Source: Streptomyces sp. NBC_01439 (GTDB lineage Bacteria > Actinomycetota > Actinomycetes > Streptomycetales > Streptomycetaceae). From it: DNA of 64,000 nt. Below are positions 35,943 to 46,371 of this stretch, piece after piece. The DNA lies in the NCBI RefSeq assembly GCF_036227605.1, contig NZ_CP109487.1, positions 434,001-498,000 of the forward strand, written 5' to 3'. Positions within the stretch are counted from its first letter, which is position 1. Every line of letters begins with the position of its first letter. The position numbers and the translations under genes are program-made. The notes under the pieces are model-generated. The model made no database searches and had not been told where the DNA came from. It worked only from the letters and a program-made list of their open reading frames with translations.

Positions 35943-37109
35943 CTACGGCAGGCCGGCCAGGGTCTCGCAGCCGGTGGCGAAGTCGGTTCCGCCTTCGCCG
36001 TCGCAGGCGTCCGGGCCGTCCGGGCCGGCGGGGCCCCCGGAGAGGAAGTCGCCGGCGGGGCCCGCCTTGAGGGTGTCGACGCCCTCGCCGCCGTCGAGGA
36101 AGTCGGCGCCCCCCGCCGTTCCCGCGCTCGCCGTGCCGGTGAGGTCGACGTTGTCGCCGAAGACGCGGTCGTTCCCGGCGCCGCCGCTGATGGTGTCGTT
36201 GCCCGCGGCGGTGCGGCGCGCATCGGCCGGGCCGCTGTCTCCGACGAGGAACTCGTCGGAGGCTCCGCCGATGATCCGGTCGTTCCCGGCGCCGATCGCG
36301 CGACCCCCCGCCGGGTTGGTGACGGTGTGGTCGCCGATCGCCGAGACCCCGCCGTCGGCGCCCAGGTCCAGCAGGTCGTTGCCGCCGCTGCCGATCGCGT
36401 TCCGTGCGGCCTCGCTGTCCCCCGTCATGGTCTCGGACCCGGGCCCTCCGAGCAGTACGTCGCTCCCGGCGCCCGTGGCGTTGCCGGCGGACGCACCGGA
36501 GTCACCGAGCAGGGCGTCGTCGCCGGGGCCGCCGTCGATCCGGTCGGCTCCGCCGCCCACCGCGTTCAGTCCTCTGCTGTCCCCCGTCAGCCGGTCGTTG
36601 CCGGGGCCGCCGATGAGCTGGTCGTTTCCGCCGCCCTCGGCGTTGCCGCCGGGGGCGTAGCTGTCGCCGGTGAACTGGTCGTCCCCGTCGCCTCCGAGCA
36701 GGCGGTCGTTGCCGCCGCCCGTGGCGTCGCCGGTCGGGCTGAAGCTGTCGCCGCGCAGCTGGTCGGCGCCCGCGGAGCCGTCGATCTGGTCGTTGCCGAG
36801 TCCGCCGATGAGGACGTCGTCACCCGCCAGCCCGCAGATCAGGTCGTCGCCGCCCTGGCCGTGGATCGTGTCCGGGCCCGGAGTGCCGACGATCACGTCG
36901 TTGCCCGGGGTCCCGTCGGTGGTCGCGCCGGGGGTGGTGACGACGAGGGTGGCGGGTACGCCGAAGCAGGTCACCGCCCGTGCGCTGACGTTCCCGGTCC
37001 CGAGGAGGACGAGGGATCCGGCGGCCAGGGCGCAGGCGAAGCCGGCGGCGGCCGCCCGGCGGGGGCGAGGTCCCGGTCCGGACTCCCGCTGATGTTCCCA
37101 GTGGGGCAT
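35943..37109 (-). CDS. Secreted RTX-like calcium-binding repeat protein
   Basis: 388 residues. ATG 37109 follows AAGGGAG 10 nt upstream. Signal peptide about 1-42 (AAAAGFACALAAGSLVLLGTGNVSA). The rest is a run of hemolysin-type nonapeptides (GGxGxDxxx) such as GTPGNDVIVG, GQGGDDLICG, GGLGNDQIDG, GGPGNDRLTG and GGAGNDRVFG, many separated by longer GDS-containing inserts. These build a parallel beta-roll that folds on binding calcium outside the cell. No enzymatic domain is attached, so it may be structural or adhesive. It ends with a Cys pair (DACDGEGGTDFATGCETL). Confidence 0.9.
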   Translation of the reverse strand: MPHWEHQRESGPGPRPRRAAAAGFACALAAGSLVLLGTGNVSARAVTCFGVPATLVVTTPGATTDGTPGNDVIVGTPGPDTIHGQGGDDLICGLAGDDVLIGGLGNDQIDGSAGADQLRGDSFSPTGDATGGGNDRLLGGDGDDQFTGDSYAPGGNAEGGGNDQLIGGPGNDRLTGDSRGLNAVGGGADRIDGGPGDDALLGDSGASAGNATGAGSDVLLGGPGSETMTGDSEAARNAIGSGGNDLLDLGADGGVSAIGDHTVTNPAGGRAIGAGNDRIIGGASDEFLVGDSGPADARRTAAGNDTISGGAGNDRVFGDNVDLTGTASAGTAGGADFLDGGEGVDTLKAGPAGDFLSGGPAGPDGPDACDGEGGTDFATGCETLAGLP

Positions 37110-37132
37110 CGTCTGCACTCCCTTGGCCGCAA

Positions 37133-37143
37133 TTAGTCGGACT
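37133..37143. promoter_or_regulatory. Short dyad upstream of RTX gene
   Basis: TAGTC-G-GACTA lies 24 nt upstream of ATG 37109 in an AT-rich patch within this GC-rich region. It may be an operator or part of the RTX-gene promoter. Low certainty. The remaining sequence to 37340 shows nothing I can name. Confidence 0.3.
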
Positions 37144-37340
37144 ATCGCCATAACTAGCCGCGGCGCGGGCCTCGGCGACGCCGACACACTGACGGGCTCG
37201 GGCAGACGGCTGACGGGGATCGCACCCGTGGAGCAACGGCGAGCCGTGCCGGGCACCGGGCACGACAGGGGCGGGGCCGGGCAACGCCGGAGCGAGCGGT
37301 CGGACCCATCAGCGGGCCGGGAAAGGACTCCGTCTCCTCC

Positions 37341-39869: not shown

Positions 39870-40292
39870 TCAGGCGATCGAGGCGGCGACGATCGCGGCC
39901 ACGGCGAGGTTGCAGGCGGCCGAGACCCAGACCGCCGGGTGGGGCTCCGGGTCGACGACGATGGCGCCGAGCTTGCCGGGGGTCACCAGGTCGAGCACGA
40001 GGAAGGCCACCGCCATCAGGATCAGGCCGAGCACGCCGAACGCCGCGGTGGACAGCAGGCCCTTGCCGAAGTCCGCGTACGTCGTCCAGATCGAGGTGAA
40101 GACGATGCCGCCGATGCCGAGGAGCGCGGAACTGAGGAAGAGGGCCGCGTTGCGGTTGCGCTCCTCCCAGATCTGCTTGGGGAGCTTCCCGGGCGTCAGC
40201 ACGTCCACGAGGACGATGCCGAGGATCAGCAGCACCAGGCCGAGGGCGCCGTAGGCGCTGGTGCGGCCAAGTCCGTTGATGATGTCGCTCAT
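39870..40292 (-). CDS. DUF350 membrane protein
   Basis: 140 residues, four membrane helices in two tandem repeats; each repeat contains the same phrase (DVLTPGKLPKQI at about 30 and DLVTPGKLGAIV at about 103), as in DUF350 proteins. Function of the family is unknown. ATG 40292. It diverges by 95 nt from the GNAT/ATP-grasp gene. Confidence 0.88.
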   Translation of the reverse strand: MSDIINGLGRTSAYGALGLVLLILGIVLVDVLTPGKLPKQIWEERNRNAALFLSSALLGIGGIVFTSIWTTYADFGKGLLSTAAFGVLGLILMAVAFLVLDLVTPGKLGAIVVDPEPHPAVWVSAACNLAVAAIVAASIA

Positions 40293-40387: not shown

Positions 40388-42160
40388 ATGGTAAAGGTCA
40401 GGGCCGCGCGGCCCGCCGAGGCGGCGGACCTGACCGGGCTGGTGATGCGGTCCAAGGCGCACTGGGGGTACGACGCCGACTTCCTGGCCGCGTGCGCGCC
40501 GGAACTGCGGATCCGGCCCGACGACGTGACGGCCCGCCGTGTGGTCGTGGCCGAAAACGGGCGGGGAGAGGTGCTCGGGATCGCCTCGCTGGAGGGGGCT
40601 CCCCCGCGGGCGGCGCTCGGGCTGCTCTTCGTGGAGCCGTCCGCCATCGGGCAGGGCGTGGGTCGGCTGCTGTACCGGGACGCGCTGCGGCGGGCCGTGG
40701 ACCTGGGGGTGCGCCGGCTGACGATCGACTCCGATCCGCACGCGGCCGGGTTCTACCGGGCGATGGGGGCGGTGGCCACGGCCGCACCGGACGGGGGACC
40801 CGGTGGTCCGGCCCTGGTCCGGTTCGAGGCGGCTCCCGTCCCGCTCGCCGATTGGGCGCGGACCTGGACCGGTGGCGGGCGGGCCGTGCACCTGGGCAAC
40901 GTCGGCGAGTTCAACGCGCAGTTCGCCGATGCCACCGTGGATCCGGAGCAGCGGCCCGCGCACCACTACGCGTGCCTCGCCGCCTTCTACAGTCCCTACC
41001 CGGCCGCGCTGGTGCTGCCGCGGCCGGTGCCACGGGGCTGGACCGAGCTGGTCTGCCGCCAGCTGGGCTGGACCGGGGTCGAGGTGTACGACGGCCTGTT
41101 GGACGCGGATCCCGGCCTCGCCGATGCCGTACGGGACCGGCCGGCGCTGGCCGCGCTGCTCACCGGGGCCGGGCTGCCCCTCGTACCCTGGGGGCGCACC
41201 CGGCCGTTCGGACGGCTGGCGGGCCGGCCGTGGCGGCCCGGGGAACTGCGCTACGAATCGAAGTCCGCGGCGCACGCCCTCTTCGGGCGGATCCTGGCGG
41301 ACGGCGGGCATCCGGGAATCGTGCTCCCCCGGCAGTGGCGGGCAGACGGGCGGTGGACGGCGGCCCGGATGCTGGCGGCCAGGACCAGGGCGGGCGAGAG
41401 CACCGTTTTGAAATCGGAGCACGGTGTCGGGGGTTCGGGCACCACGGTGGTCACCCCCGAGCGGGTCCGTGCCGCGGGCGGGGCGCGGGCCGTGCTGCGG
41501 CGTTTGCCGCGCGGGCCGTTGCTGGTGGAGGAGTACGTCGGCGGTCCGGCGGCCGGGGCCGACGGGGGGCCTCGGGACCTGACGTACGACGGCTTCGTGG
41601 ATGACGCGGGCCGCGCGCACGAGGTGGGCGGGGCGGTGATGGACGTGGCGGACGGCTGCTACCGGGGCGCCACCGTGGGTCCCGGGGTGGTGCCCGAGTG
41701 GGCGGAGAGCTCCCTCACCGCCTTCGGCGCGGCGGTGGGCCGGGAGCTGGCGGAATCCGGCTACCGGGGCTGGTTCGACGTGGACTTCGTCGCCGACGGG
41801 GCGGGGCGGCTCGCGCCGACCGAGACGAACCTGCGGCTGACCGGGCCGTCCATCGCCTTCATGGTGGCGGCCCGGCTCGACGCGCTGCGGGGCTCGGGGC
41901 ACCTCGTACGGATCGTCGACCGGGTGGAACTGGGTGCGCGGCTGCCCGAGGCCCTGCTGGACGAGTGGTGCGCGGACCTGGCCCGGGGCTGCGCGGAGCT
42001 CGGGGCGGTGTTCGTCCCCGCGATCCCGACCGCCGCCTTCGAACCGGCGCCCTGGCTGGGTGTGCTGGTGGCCGCGCACAGCAGGGAGGTGCTGGACGCG
42101 GCCGAGGCGCTGGTACGGGCCGAGGCCCTCGCGGTCGGGGCGATGTTCGGCCCGCCGTAG
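40388..42160 (+). CDS. GNAT acetyltransferase fused to ATP-grasp ligase-like domain
   Basis: 590 residues, ATG 40388 after GGGGAGG 8 nt upstream. Residues 1-145 are a GNAT domain (RPAEAADLTGLVMRSKAHWGY, acetyl-CoA loop EPSAIGQGVGRLLYRDAL, FYRAMGAV). A linker follows and about 280-560 form an ATP-grasp fold: YESKSAAHALFGRIL, Gly-rich loop VLKSEHGVGGSGTTVV (about 341-356), LLVEEYVGG, and the metal site WFDVDFV...PTETNLRLTG (about 460-485). The ETNLRxTG phrase recalls PGM1-type peptide ligases. It may join and acetylate an amino-acid-like metabolite. Convergent with the adenylation-like gene. Confidence 0.85.
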   Translation: MVKVRAARPAEAADLTGLVMRSKAHWGYDADFLAACAPELRIRPDDVTARRVVVAENGRGEVLGIASLEGAPPRAALGLLFVEPSAIGQGVGRLLYRDALRRAVDLGVRRLTIDSDPHAAGFYRAMGAVATAAPDGGPGGPALVRFEAAPVPLADWARTWTGGGRAVHLGNVGEFNAQFADATVDPEQRPAHHYACLAAFYSPYPAALVLPRPVPRGWTELVCRQLGWTGVEVYDGLLDADPGLADAVRDRPALAALLTGAGLPLVPWGRTRPFGRLAGRPWRPGELRYESKSAAHALFGRILADGGHPGIVLPRQWRADGRWTAARMLAARTRAGESTVLKSEHGVGGSGTTVVTPERVRAAGGARAVLRRLPRGPLLVEEYVGGPAAGADGGPRDLTYDGFVDDAGRAHEVGGAVMDVADGCYRGATVGPGVVPEWAESSLTAFGAAVGRELAESGYRGWFDVDFVADGAGRLAPTETNLRLTGPSIAFMVAARLDALRGSGHLVRIVDRVELGARLPEALLDEWCADLARGCAELGAVFVPAIPTAAFEPAPWLGVLVAAHSREVLDAAEALVRAEALAVGAMFGPP

Positions 42161-42212: not shown

Positions 42213-44342
42213 TCAGCGATCGGGCCGGTCGTCCGCGGGGTCGTGGAAGTCGAAGGGGTCGGCCGGTTTGCTGACGACGTAGGCGGCGACGATGACGCCC
42301 GCGATCATCAGCGGGATGTTGAAGGCGTAGACCAGCGCGGCCTGGCGCGGCCAGTCCTGTTTGGCGGCCAGTCGGTAGAAGTTGTCCTGCGGCCACCAGG
42401 ACAACAGCAGGTAGGACACGGCGAGATGGGCGGCCGCGGTGAGGGAGGGACCACGGCGTTGACGCAGCATCCGGGCACGGCCGCCGAACAGGAACACCAC
42501 CCCGACCCCGAAGGCGACGCACTCGAACAGGTACAGCACGAAGAACAGGAACGCCCAGGGCTGCGGCACCCCGGTGAGGTCGGTCGATCCGGGCCAGAGG
42601 AGGTTCGTCAAGATCAGCGCGACGAGCCCCAGCGCTGCTCCTCCGCAGCCGGCCGCGCAGCCGGCCGAGGCCTCGCCCTGGGGCGCTGCGGCCCCGTACT
42701 TGCCGGACTTGCCCCCGGGCTTCTGGGCCGCCGCGGGCAGGATGGGCAGCGGCAGGGCGTCCCGGTCCTCCTGACCCGCCGTGGTGCGGGGCAGGGCGCG
42801 CAGCCGGATCACGGTGCGCGGGCACTCCTCCCGGAGCACCTTGCCCGCCAGGTGGTCGCGCAGTTCCTCGATGTCCGGGAACGGGGCCCTGGCGGGTACG
42901 GTCGGCCCGCCGGGCGGCGGGGCCACGTACGCGACGAGCCGGCGCGGGCCGCGGGGGCCGTCGACCCCCTTCAGGATGGCCGCGCCAATGCCCTCGTGGC
43001 TGCGGATGGCGGACTCGACGGGGTACGGGTCGATCATGCGGCCGCCAGGCAGGGTGATCCGGTCCCGGAGCCGGCCGCGGTACTCCAACAACCCGTCCTC
43101 GCGGAGCAGGCCCATGTCGCCGGTGGGTACCGCGTCGGCGCCGTCCGGCGGGACGAGGCGGATCTCCCCGTCGTGCACCTCGGCCCGGAAGCCCGGGAAC
43201 GCGGTGCCGAGCAGGGATATCTCCTCCGGGTCGTCCAACGGACGTGGCAGCTGGGGAAGTTCGAACCAGGTGCCGATGCCGGCGCACTCCGCGGGGCCGT
43301 AGACGTTGAGCACCCGCGCGCCGGGGCGCAGCCGGACCTGCAGGGTCGCCTGCTCGTCGAGGTAGAGCCGGTCGCCCGAGACGGCGAGCAGTCGCAGGGA
43401 CCTGCAGGCCGGGTCGGCACCGCGGTGGGCGGCCGGGGCGAGCGTTCCCCGTTCGGCCTCGTGGACCAGCAGTCGGGCGGCGCCGGCCGGGTCGGTGTGC
43501 AGCACGGTGACGCGGTCGGTCTCGACGGCCGTGCGGATGTCCCCGGGCTGCCAGGCGGAACGCGGGGAGAGCACGAGGGCGCCGCCCGAACACAGGGCCC
43601 GGGTCCAACCCGCGGCGAAGGCGGTGACGCCCGTACCGACCGTGAACAGGTGCCGGTCCTGCGGGGTCGGCCGGGCCACCTCGGCCCAGGCCTCGTGGGC
43701 GGCGAGGAGCAGCCCGTGGCCCACGGGGACCGCGCGCGGCTCGACCGCCCCGCTGGACAGGACCGCGGCGGTGCGACCGGGCGGCGGGGCGACCGCACCG
43801 GGAAGCCGGTCCTCGGGCGAATGCCCGGGCCGGTCCGCAGGTCCGTTCGCGGCCCCGTCCGCAGGCCCGTCCGCAGGCCCGTCCGCGGACTGTTCGGTGC
43901 GCGGCCCGCCGATCGCCGCGGGCTCCGCGTCGAGCCGGATCACCCGGGGGCCGCCACCGTTGTCGAGTGCGGCCTGCTGGGCGGCATCGGTGAGCAGGAC
44001 GAGGGGCTCGGCCGCGGCGAGTTGCCGGCGGCCGGAGCGCGGGCTCTCCACGTCGATGACGGCGTAGGACCCGCCGGCCTTGAGGACGGCGAGGAGGGCG
44101 ACGACCAGTTCGCTCTGCCGGGCGGTGCCCACGGCGACGAGTGCGCCGGGCGGCAGGCCGGAGTCGAGCAGACGGTGCGCCAGCCGGTCGGCCCGCGCGT
44201 CCAGTTCCCCGTAGGTGAGGCCGTCCGGGCCGGCGATGAGCGCGCGGGCTCCGGGAGTGTCCCGGGCCCACTGCTCGAAGCGGTGCAGGACGGTGTCGGT
44301 GGTTCGTTTGCCGAAGCGTACGGACTCGGATCCCTGCGTCAT
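42213..44342 (-). CDS. AMP-binding (NRPS adenylation-like) protein with C-terminal membrane domain
   Basis: 709 residues. Residues 1-540 follow an adenylation domain: LTYGELDARADRLAHRL (A2), VLNVYGPAECAGIG (A5), PTGDMGLLREDGLLEYRGRLRDR (A7-A8). Two key motifs are degraded: the phosphate loop reads AAVLSSGAVEPRAV instead of TSGTTGxPKG, and A10 reads LPRTTAGQEDRDALPLP with Gln524 where catalytic Lys is expected. There is no carrier domain; after a Cys/Gly patch come four membrane helices (about 560-700). Inference: a membrane-tethered, probably non-adenylating or altered enzyme. An ADGPADGPADG repeat lies near 155-170. Confidence 0.85.
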   Translation of the reverse strand: MTQGSESVRFGKRTTDTVLHRFEQWARDTPGARALIAGPDGLTYGELDARADRLAHRLLDSGLPPGALVAVGTARQSELVVALLAVLKAGGSYAVIDVESPRSGRRQLAAAEPLVLLTDAAQQAALDNGGGPRVIRLDAEPAAIGGPRTEQSADGPADGPADGAANGPADRPGHSPEDRLPGAVAPPPGRTAAVLSSGAVEPRAVPVGHGLLLAAHEAWAEVARPTPQDRHLFTVGTGVTAFAAGWTRALCSGGALVLSPRSAWQPGDIRTAVETDRVTVLHTDPAGAARLLVHEAERGTLAPAAHRGADPACRSLRLLAVSGDRLYLDEQATLQVRLRPGARVLNVYGPAECAGIGTWFELPQLPRPLDDPEEISLLGTAFPGFRAEVHDGEIRLVPPDGADAVPTGDMGLLREDGLLEYRGRLRDRITLPGGRMIDPYPVESAIRSHEGIGAAILKGVDGPRGPRRLVAYVAPPPGGPTVPARAPFPDIEELRDHLAGKVLREECPRTVIRLRALPRTTAGQEDRDALPLPILPAAAQKPGGKSGKYGAAAPQGEASAGCAAGCGGAALGLVALILTNLLWPGSTDLTGVPQPWAFLFFVLYLFECVAFGVGVVFLFGGRARMLRQRRGPSLTAAAHLAVSYLLLSWWPQDNFYRLAAKQDWPRQAALVYAFNIPLMIAGVIVAAYVVSKPADPFDFHDPADDRPDR

Positions 44343-44481: not shown

Positions 44482-46371
44482 ATGGACATGGAAGTCACCG
44501 CCTGGACGTCGCTGCACAGCGCGATCAACGCCCAGCAGGACCGTCGCCCGCTCTCCCGGGCCGGCCTGCGCCGCGTCGCCGCCTTCGCCCGCCCGCACCG
44601 CCGCGGGCTCACCCTCTTCCTGCTGCTGAGCGTGGTGACCGCCCTGCTCGCGGTGGCCACCCCGGTGCTCGCCAGCCGGGTCGTCACGGCCATCGTGGAC
44701 GGCCGCGACAGCTCCGCTGTCACCCGCCTCGCCCTGCTCATCGCGCTGATCGCGGTCGCGGAGGCCGGACTCGGACTGCTGACCCGCAGACTCTCCGCAA
44801 CCCTCGGCGAGGGGCTGATCCTGGATCTGCGGACGGCGGTCTTCGACCACGTGCAGCGGATGCCGGTCGCCTTCTTCACCCGGACCCGGACGGGGGCCCT
44901 GGTCAGCCGCCTCAACAACGATGTGATCGGTGCCCAGCGCGCCTTCAGCAACACCCTGTCGGGGGTCGTCGCCAACACCGTCACCCTGGTACTGACCCTC
45001 ACCGTGATGCTCGGCATCTCCTGGCAGATCACCCTGCTGGCACTGGTGCTGCTGCCGGTGTTCGTGCTGCCGGCCCGCCGGATGGGGGCGCGGATGGCGG
45101 CGATGCAGCGCGAGGCGTCCGCGCTGAACGCCGCGATGGGCACCCAGATGACCGAACGGTTCTCCGCCCCCGGCGCGACGCTGGTCAAGCTCTTCGGGCG
45201 GCCCGCCGACGAGTCCGCGGAGTTCGCGGCCCGGGCGGCGCGGGTGCGCGACATCGGGATCCGCACGGCCATGGCCCAGTCGGCCTTCATCACGGCCCTC
45301 ACCCTGGTCTCGGCGCTGGCCCTGGCGCTCGTCTACGGGCTCGGCGGGTTCTACGCCCTGCGCGGCTCCCTGGACGCCGGTTCCGTCGTCGCCCTCGCCC
45401 TCCTCCTGACCCGGCTCTACGCCCCGCTCACCGCACTCGCCGGCGCCCGCGTCGAGGTGATGAGCGCGATGGTGAGCTTCGAGCGGGTCTTCGAGATCCT
45501 CGACCTGAAGCCGCTCATCGCACAGGATCCGGACGCCCGCCGGGTGCCCCGGGGGCCGGTGGCGGTGGAGTTCGACCGGGTCTCCTTCGGCTATCCGGCC
45601 GCCGACAAGGTCTCGCTGGCCTCCCTGGAGGAGGTCGCCACCCTGGATGCCCGGGGCGGTACGCAGGTGCTGCACGAGGTGTCCTTCCGCGCCGAACCGG
45701 GCCAGATGATCGCCCTGGTCGGCTCGTCCGGCGCCGGCAAGTCGACCATCGCTCAGCTGCTGCCGCGGCTGTACGACGCCGACGCGGGCGCGGTCCGGCT
45801 CGGCGGGATCGACGTACGTCACCTCACGGCCGACTCGATCCGCGAGACGCTCGGCATGGTCACCCAGGACGGGCACCTCTTCCACGAATCGGTGCGCGCC
45901 AACCTGCTGCTGGCCCGCCCGGAGGCCTCCGAGGAGGAGGTCTGGGAGGCCCTGCGGCGCGCGCGGCTGGACGGCCTCGTCGCCTCGCTGCCGGACGGAC
46001 TGGACACGGTGGTCGGGGAGCGCGGCTACCGGCTCTCGGGCGGGGAACGGCAGCGACTGACCATCGCGCGGCTGCTGCTGGCCCGGCAGCGGGTGGTGAT
46101 CCTCGACGAGGCCACCGCGCACCTGGACTCCACCTCGGAGGCAGCGGTGCAGGAGGCCCTGGGCGAGGCCTTGGCGGGCCGGACGGCGGTGGTGATCGCG
46201 CACCGACTGTCGACCGTACAGGCGGCGGACCTGATCCTGGTGGTCGAGGACGGCCGGATCGTGGAACGGGGCACGCACACCGCACTGCTGGCGGCGGGCG
46301 GGCGGTACGAGGAGCTGTACCGCACCCAGTTCGCCGTGTCGGGCAGCGGGGCACCGGCGCCGGGCGCATGA
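44482..46371 (+). CDS. ABC exporter, fused permease-ATPase
   Basis: 629 residues, half-transporter acting as a dimer. Six membrane helices (about 40-330), then the ATPase: Walker A LVGSSGAGKST, signature YRLSGGERQRLTIARLLL, Walker B VVILDEATAHLD, switch His in VIAHRLSTVQAAD. ATG 44482 (or 44488) with a leaderless promoter. The SoxR-like box suggests induction by redox-active compounds; an ABC exporter belongs to the S. coelicolor SoxR regulon, and this may be its counterpart. Divergent from the adenylation-like gene. Confidence 0.92.
   Translation: MDMEVTAWTSLHSAINAQQDRRPLSRAGLRRVAAFARPHRRGLTLFLLLSVVTALLAVATPVLASRVVTAIVDGRDSSAVTRLALLIALIAVAEAGLGLLTRRLSATLGEGLILDLRTAVFDHVQRMPVAFFTRTRTGALVSRLNNDVIGAQRAFSNTLSGVVANTVTLVLTLTVMLGISWQITLLALVLLPVFVLPARRMGARMAAMQREASALNAAMGTQMTERFSAPGATLVKLFGRPADESAEFAARAARVRDIGIRTAMAQSAFITALTLVSALALALVYGLGGFYALRGSLDAGSVVALALLLTRLYAPLTALAGARVEVMSAMVSFERVFEILDLKPLIAQDPDARRVPRGPVAVEFDRVSFGYPAADKVSLASLEEVATLDARGGTQVLHEVSFRAEPGQMIALVGSSGAGKSTIAQLLPRLYDADAGAVRLGGIDVRHLTADSIRETLGMVTQDGHLFHESVRANLLLARPEASEEEVWEALRRARLDGLVASLPDGLDTVVGERGYRLSGGERQRLTIARLLLARQRVVILDEATAHLDSTSEAAVQEALGEALAGRTAVVIAHRLSTVQAADLILVVEDGRIVERGTHTALLAAGGRYEELYRTQFAVSGSGAPAPGA

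Follow-up and report, generated by a model that had tools for sequence, protein, structure and literature searches.

ATP-grasp peptide ligases such as PGM1 and BesA are among the closest described relatives of the system reported here, and a GNAT domain is combined with an ATP-grasp domain in Ngg, the N-acetylglutaminylglutamine synthetase. Ngg is reported to carry out N-acetylation and peptide bond formation within one protein (PMC8070244). For the other half of the system, the relevant comparisons are the adenylation domains of nonribosomal peptide synthetases (NRPS; PheA/GrsA type, PF00501 plus PF13193) and the cationic homopoly(amino acid) synthetases Pls (epsilon-polylysine synthetase) and PosA, which join an adenylation domain to membrane helices in one protein and are reported to possess a thiolation domain together with six transmembrane domains and, in tandem, three acetyltransferase-related domains (PMC8117764). 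Here we analyse a 64,000-nucleotide stretch of Streptomyces sp. NBC_01439 (the window, positions 434001-498000 of a 9.58-Mb contig), in which the gene for a 709-residue protein with an adenylation fold and four C-terminal membrane helices (the target) is convergent with a gene for a GNAT/ATP-grasp protein (the partner). The target has the fold, the domain order, the A2, A5, A7 and A8 motifs and the ribose-binding residues in common with NRPS adenylation domains, but it lacks the equivalent of Asp235 and the A3 loop, has Gln in place of the A10 Lys, is without a carrier and ends in a membrane tail. It differs from Pls and PosA in the missing carrier, in having four helices and in that the ligase resides in a separate protein; we rejected the target as a homopolymer synthetase on the absent thiolation domain and the helix number. 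The ligase of the partner is about 17-21% identical to PGM1 and BesA, from which it is set apart by its fusion to GNAT in most lineages and by its tie to a membrane protein, which is also, in contrast to Ngg, its steady neighbour. With the exception of the membrane domain, the component parts come from known superfamilies. The features discussed below are as follows.

42213-44342, minus strand: target gene, 709 amino acids, putative pseudo-adenylation core, A_sub and four membrane helices
43143-44300, minus strand: A_core, residues 15-400, adenylation fold without an A3 loop or the amino-acid-anchoring Asp
43716-43766, minus strand: degenerate A3 region, residues 193-209; residue 203, which aligns with the A3 Lys, is Arg in 118/118 family members
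43623-43625, minus strand: Thr240, at the place of Asp235, the alpha-amino anchor (in 118 rows Thr 112, Ala 3 and Val 3, with Asp in none)
43116-43118, minus strand: Asp409 (A7), kept, presumed ribose-binding position (118/118 and 58/58)
43071-43073, minus strand: Arg424 (A8), kept, presumed ribose-binding position (118/118 and 58/58)
42744-43130, minus strand: A_sub region, residues 405-533, with a PF13193 match at residues 442-523
42771-42773, minus strand: Gln524, aligned with the A10 Lys (in 118 rows Q 91, R 23, H 2, G 1 and E 1)
42273-42665, minus strand: four-helix membrane domain, residues 560-690, under the strongest constraint of all parts of the protein among the closest relatives of the window
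42381-42398, minus strand: WWPQDN motif, residues 649-654, predicted outer face, each residue 38/38 in the alignment
40388-42160, plus strand: convergent partner gene, 590 amino acids; the open reading frame opens at 40292 and the start was chosen by homology
40388-40807, plus strand: GNAT acetyltransferase domain of the partner
40835-42142, plus strand: ATP-grasp ligase domain of the partner

Because target and ligase are nearly always found side by side, they probably act as one unit, and we are highly confident that the pair is a functional two-gene unit. A convergent ligase partner was present at 90/90 loci seeded by the target protein (86 distinct records, window included), and the convergent pairing holds despite intervening genes at three of them (L048, L050 and L071). 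When loci were seeded by the ligase profile, the membrane domain was found at 29 of 30 (window included), lying within about 1.5 kb of the ligase in 28 and about 2.3 kb off in one; 12 of these 30 were already in the target-seeded set, and 17 of the 18 new ones have the membrane domain. Phylogenetic trees of the ligase and of A_sub plus the membrane helices share their main groups, with one Pseudonocardia row lying inside Streptomyces in both, and the distances of the two correlate at 0.80 (n=78), a value reached by 0/2000 permutations. Neighbour clustering, with genes called by an ad hoc codon-composition rule, yielded no other constant neighbour across 80 loci, the next commonest occurring at 33, 25, 21 and 19 of them. 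The membrane domain is common to all sampled target-protein loci, and the common core of the sampled lineages is A_sub, the membrane domain and the ligase.

The target is a single genuine gene with an NRPS-type adenylation fold in which A_core and A_sub are both present. A protein search yielded 604 homologues among 8000 scored candidates, and 118 rows from the best 120 of these 604 (window protein included) align across both halves. Since the halves occur together in all 118, we rejected a sequencing error or fusion artefact as the local origin of the arrangement, and the gene break between them that the initial annotation had named as a refuting result is not there. Its observations held: the order of A2, A5 and A7-A8 is that of an NRPS adenylation domain, the A3 phosphate loop is unrecognisable, Gln524 replaces the A10 Lys (which occurs in 0/118 close family members), and the protein stops at residue 709 after four helices. 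It had also seen no carrier domain, and Pfam gives no carrier match in the target, whose linker of only about 26 residues hides none; separate carrier proteins elsewhere were not searched for. Within the genus sample, 10 of 101 genomes (the window's own included) match the target at E 3.2e-164 or better, a figure that excludes more distant members. Among the homologues listed by the protein search, 'AMP-binding protein' is the label on most of those that bear a name.

The core of the 118 close family members has lost some residues and kept others. The equivalent of Asp235 is described as the anchor of the alpha-amino group in NRPS adenylation domains (PMC11355689). The amino-acid pocket is conserved in a new form, with Thr240 in 112, Ala244 in 112, His282 in 113, Val347 in 108 and Gly355 in 118 of 118 rows; the pocket places of 299, 301 and 331 vary. 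Tyr348, Gly408, Asp409 and Arg424 are each unchanged in 118/118 and Glu352 in 115/118, positions which we take to line the adenosine and ribose site. The pocket differs from the amino-acid-activating type and is conserved, not randomised. The simplest reading is that the core is incapable of adenylating an amino acid and may be able to bind a nucleotide-like ligand; the first part, that it performs no amino-acid adenylation, is very likely, and nucleotide binding is a possibility to which we give rather less than even weight. The initial annotation had suggested that the protein either binds a ligand at the membrane or is an enzyme of another chemistry. Both are compatible with the evidence, and the binding half is favoured because the catalytic and amino-acid-anchoring residues are gone in 118/118 while the ribose-binding positions are invariant.

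The initial annotation overlooked the convergent ligase, the sister lineages with a complete active site and the forms without any core, and it is the relatives of the target that reveal a graded loss. Of 64 loci, 7 were dropped, and the 57 full-length ones were aligned with the window and six NRPS controls. Here a Kitasatospora-type clade, some members of which carry other genus names, retains the TSG[ST]TG loop, Asp235, A7 and the A10 Lys, with variation at the Lys within the A3 loop. Homologues with intact A3 and A10, which the initial annotation had named as a sign of local error, do therefore exist in a related clade, where they point to lineage-wide loss and not to sequence error. The ten-residue specificity code of this clade is DVAE[TSA]GVVDK, or DVGETGVVDK in two rows, in 28/28 rows (23 distinct records). 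A Glu at code position 4 is also reported for an ornithine domain of bacitracin synthetase (PMC10522769), and because of this shared residue a basic amino acid is a conceivable substrate of the Kitasatospora-type core, although we do not claim it. Outside the clade Asp235 is absent from all aligned rows, the A3 loop or the A10 Lys survives in some, and the A10 position across the 58 rows is K in 21, Q in 20, R in 16 and H in 1. That the anchor has been lost more widely than the catalytic residues suggests, without proving it, that the amino-acid-anchoring Asp went first.

At the far end of this series stand 14 loci at which only A_sub and the helices match (about 245 amino acids), the retained part starting at about target residue 442. 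Their hosts are Streptosporangiaceae, Thermomonosporaceae, Pseudonocardiaceae, Micromonosporaceae and one unplaced genome, and they form one clade with support of 87/93 in the tree of A_sub plus membrane helices (52 rows) and 100/99 in the ligase tree (50 rows), placed beside or among core-bearing rows; both trees were rooted at the midpoint only. Loss of the core is more likely than gain, because A_sub is the tail piece of an adenylation domain. A simple gene split was rejected, the whole target matching only the A_sub and helices part at these loci, one of which (L066) has no more than about 0.6 kb upstream. Across 17 rows of the short form, some perhaps fragments, Glu occupies the A10 place in 10 and Lys in 1.

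The membrane domain has no Pfam or NCBIfam model above cut-off, and the same is true of its stand-alone relatives. Invariant in 38/38 rows are Pro584, Tyr604, Glu607, WWPQDN, Tyr656, Arg657, Phe674, Asn675 and others. When 346 genomes of the phylum were searched with a profile, stand-alone relatives came up (best E 4.4e-29). Of the ones that were read, most carry WWPH instead of WWPQ, and hhalign aligned the membrane domain with this family at a probability of 99.5 and E 6.9e-23, using ten rows of which one was out of frame. The two are homologous, but the stand-alone family of other Actinomycetota has His for the Gln of WWPQDN and no A_sub. Examples with SWWPHDN or SWWPHLG lie at L133 1-498, L134 4225-4758 and L142 5151-5633, and none of these three has a Pfam match above cut-off.

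Selective constraint was estimated as the ratio of nonsynonymous to synonymous substitution rates (dN/dS) for the two genes of the window against five relatives and for five control pairs from other groups. Against the relatives, the membrane domain gave 0.08-0.29, the ligase domain 0.19-0.29, GNAT 0.36-0.63, A_sub 0.27-0.44 and the linker 0.64-1.29. The core gave 0.24-0.84 at its front and 0.30-0.52 at its rear, which indicates that it is under constraint, least at its front, where the control pairs gave 0.46, 0.05, 1.11, 0.06 and 0.41.

The partner unites GNAT and ATP-grasp domains in one protein, and its apparently intact ligase has the PGM1/BesA fold, including the region ahead of the ATP-grasp; Lys342, Asp466, Glu479, Asn481 and Arg483, candidates for the metal and ATP ligands, are invariant across 48 rows of a sequence alignment. 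TIGR03103, presumably the Ngg family model, is not among the six NCBIfam families that match the partner at E up to 0.1, and membership was rejected for lack of a match to this curated model; searching genomes with the model gave only matches below its cut-off, as did controls. In the ligase-seeded sample, at least 48 of 297 genomes have a match of E 6.2e-134 or better, the GNAT part being present in 14 and absent from 34 (a lower bound, four candidates being scored per genome). At E 1e-40 the number is 95, the remaining 47 being mostly close GNAT relatives without a ligase, which are a possible source of the GNAT-ligase fusion. In the 346 genomes of the phylum, with three candidates scored per genome and a threshold of E 1e-20, the ligase profile matched more than the GNAT part only in the window's own genome. 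One genome (G507, contig C1, 8.01 Mb) carries two equal-scoring ligase copies in opposite orientation, at 371447-372805 (minus strand) and 8002115-8003473 (plus strand), about 371 kb from one contig end and 8 kb from the other.

The presence of GNAT on the partner is mirrored by the state of the target core. In the main alignment, Asp235 is present in 10 rows, each with a GNAT-less partner; of the 48 rows lacking it, 45 (window included) have GNAT, and in 3 the contig stops too early for a call. Further GNAT-less rows have Asp in 18/18 (13 new records) and further GNAT rows in 0/3 (two new records and one repeat), so that Asp is found in 28/28 core-bearing GNAT-less rows (23 distinct records).

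Among the genes around the pair, an MsbA-like ABC exporter (44482-46371, plus strand) is divergent from the target gene, and ABC homologues occur near 33/80 loci, loosely clustered and at varying distances. A DUF350 membrane protein (39870-40292, minus strand) lies beside the 5' end of the partner and has a similarly placed homologue at 19/80 loci. Farther off, 35943-37256 (minus strand) encodes a 437-amino-acid protein with nine stretches of RTX calcium-binding repeats (PF00353, E 4.4e-34).

We judge the chances to be about even that the target serves as the membrane subunit in an amide-forming unit of two proteins in actinomycetes, and likewise balanced that the partner performs amide-plus-cap chemistry. 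The ATP-grasp domain would form an amide bond through an acyl phosphate, and the GNAT domain would add an acyl cap from acetyl-CoA, in the manner of Ngg. The pseudo-adenylation core may bind a nucleotide-like or product ligand, or dock the ligase; A_sub and the helices would keep the complex at the membrane, and the conserved WPxSTD and WWPQDNxYR segments, on the predicted outer face, could handle or sense a membrane substrate or product. The ancestral core would have activated an amino acid, as it may still do in the Kitasatospora-type clade with its GNAT-less partner, and the GNAT-bearing lineages would have given this step up. More tentatively, and at odds we consider somewhat unfavourable, the activation chemistry may have been swapped in evolution, adenylation of an amino acid being replaced by acyl transfer from the ligase-fused GNAT; the adenylation domain would then have become a ligand-binding pseudoenzyme in Streptomyces and been deleted in other actinomycetes, A_sub being left as a membrane adaptor for the ligase.

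Several observations weigh against this picture. Target and partner are convergent and hence not one operon, the roughly 9 kb downstream of one ligase (L198) contain no target gene, the permutation control leaves shared species history in place, and linkage with similar trees does not prove protein contact. The contrast between Asp235 and GNAT is essentially a single event, because it is one split of the tree; two coreless loci (L063 and L064) also have no GNAT, and GNAT may have another substrate. In places there is little constraint on the front of the core (0.84 against L004, 1.11 in L051/L060). For L046/L047, a pair of the Kitasatospora type, constraint is stronger on the core (0.06, 0.19) than on the membrane domain (0.43), which would be expected of a core that is still an enzyme there.

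Three other explanations have to be set against these data. If the core were a decaying remnant drifting to deletion in Streptomyces, so that only A_sub, the helices and the ligase mattered, one would understand why it is absent from the clade of 14 loci, why it evolves faster than the membrane domain in the window's relatives and why catalytic residues are lost in graded fashion; we nonetheless regard this as unlikely, since 8/10 core dN/dS values for the five relatives are 0.24-0.52 and not near 1, the ribose positions and the new pocket are kept in 118 rows, and the full-length form persists across many Streptomyces. A sensor or regulator, in which a nucleotide or metabolite is detected by a pseudo-adenylation core that makes nothing itself but governs the ligase or an exporter, would fit ribose positions kept without catalytic residues, the polar residues that are invariant within and next to the helices, and the adjoining divergent exporter with its homologues near 33/80 loci. 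An exporter is, however, missing near 47/80 loci, and the Kitasatospora-type clade, with a full active site and nearly one specificity code, fits ancestral catalysis; we regard the sensor as unlikely, too. It is very unlikely that the window protein still adenylates a carboxylic acid through other residues, with Gln524 tolerated and the acyl group passed straight to an amine as in carrier-less amide bond synthetases: the A3 loop is lost too, the Lys is replaced in 118/118 (by Q, R, H, G or E), the A10 place of the short form is Glu in 10/17 rows and Lys in 1/17, and an entire clade exists without the core.

Neither the combination of target and ligase nor the form with A_sub only appears among the literature matches listed, judged by title and abstract start, and the listed matches on inactive adenylation domains concern ubiquitin-like activating (E1) enzymes or their diseases. 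Genome mining would score homologues labelled 'AMP-binding protein' as amino-acid-activating enzymes, and the member in the window is very probably not one. If the proposed membrane-bound amide-forming unit is correct, a patchily spread two-gene unit of actinomycetes would include an undescribed membrane domain and produce, at the membrane, a small capped compound of peptide-like nature, and its living relatives would record successive stages in which an adenylation domain becomes a pseudoenzyme and then disappears, so that what becomes of dead adenylation domains, and what they are used for, could be tested directly.
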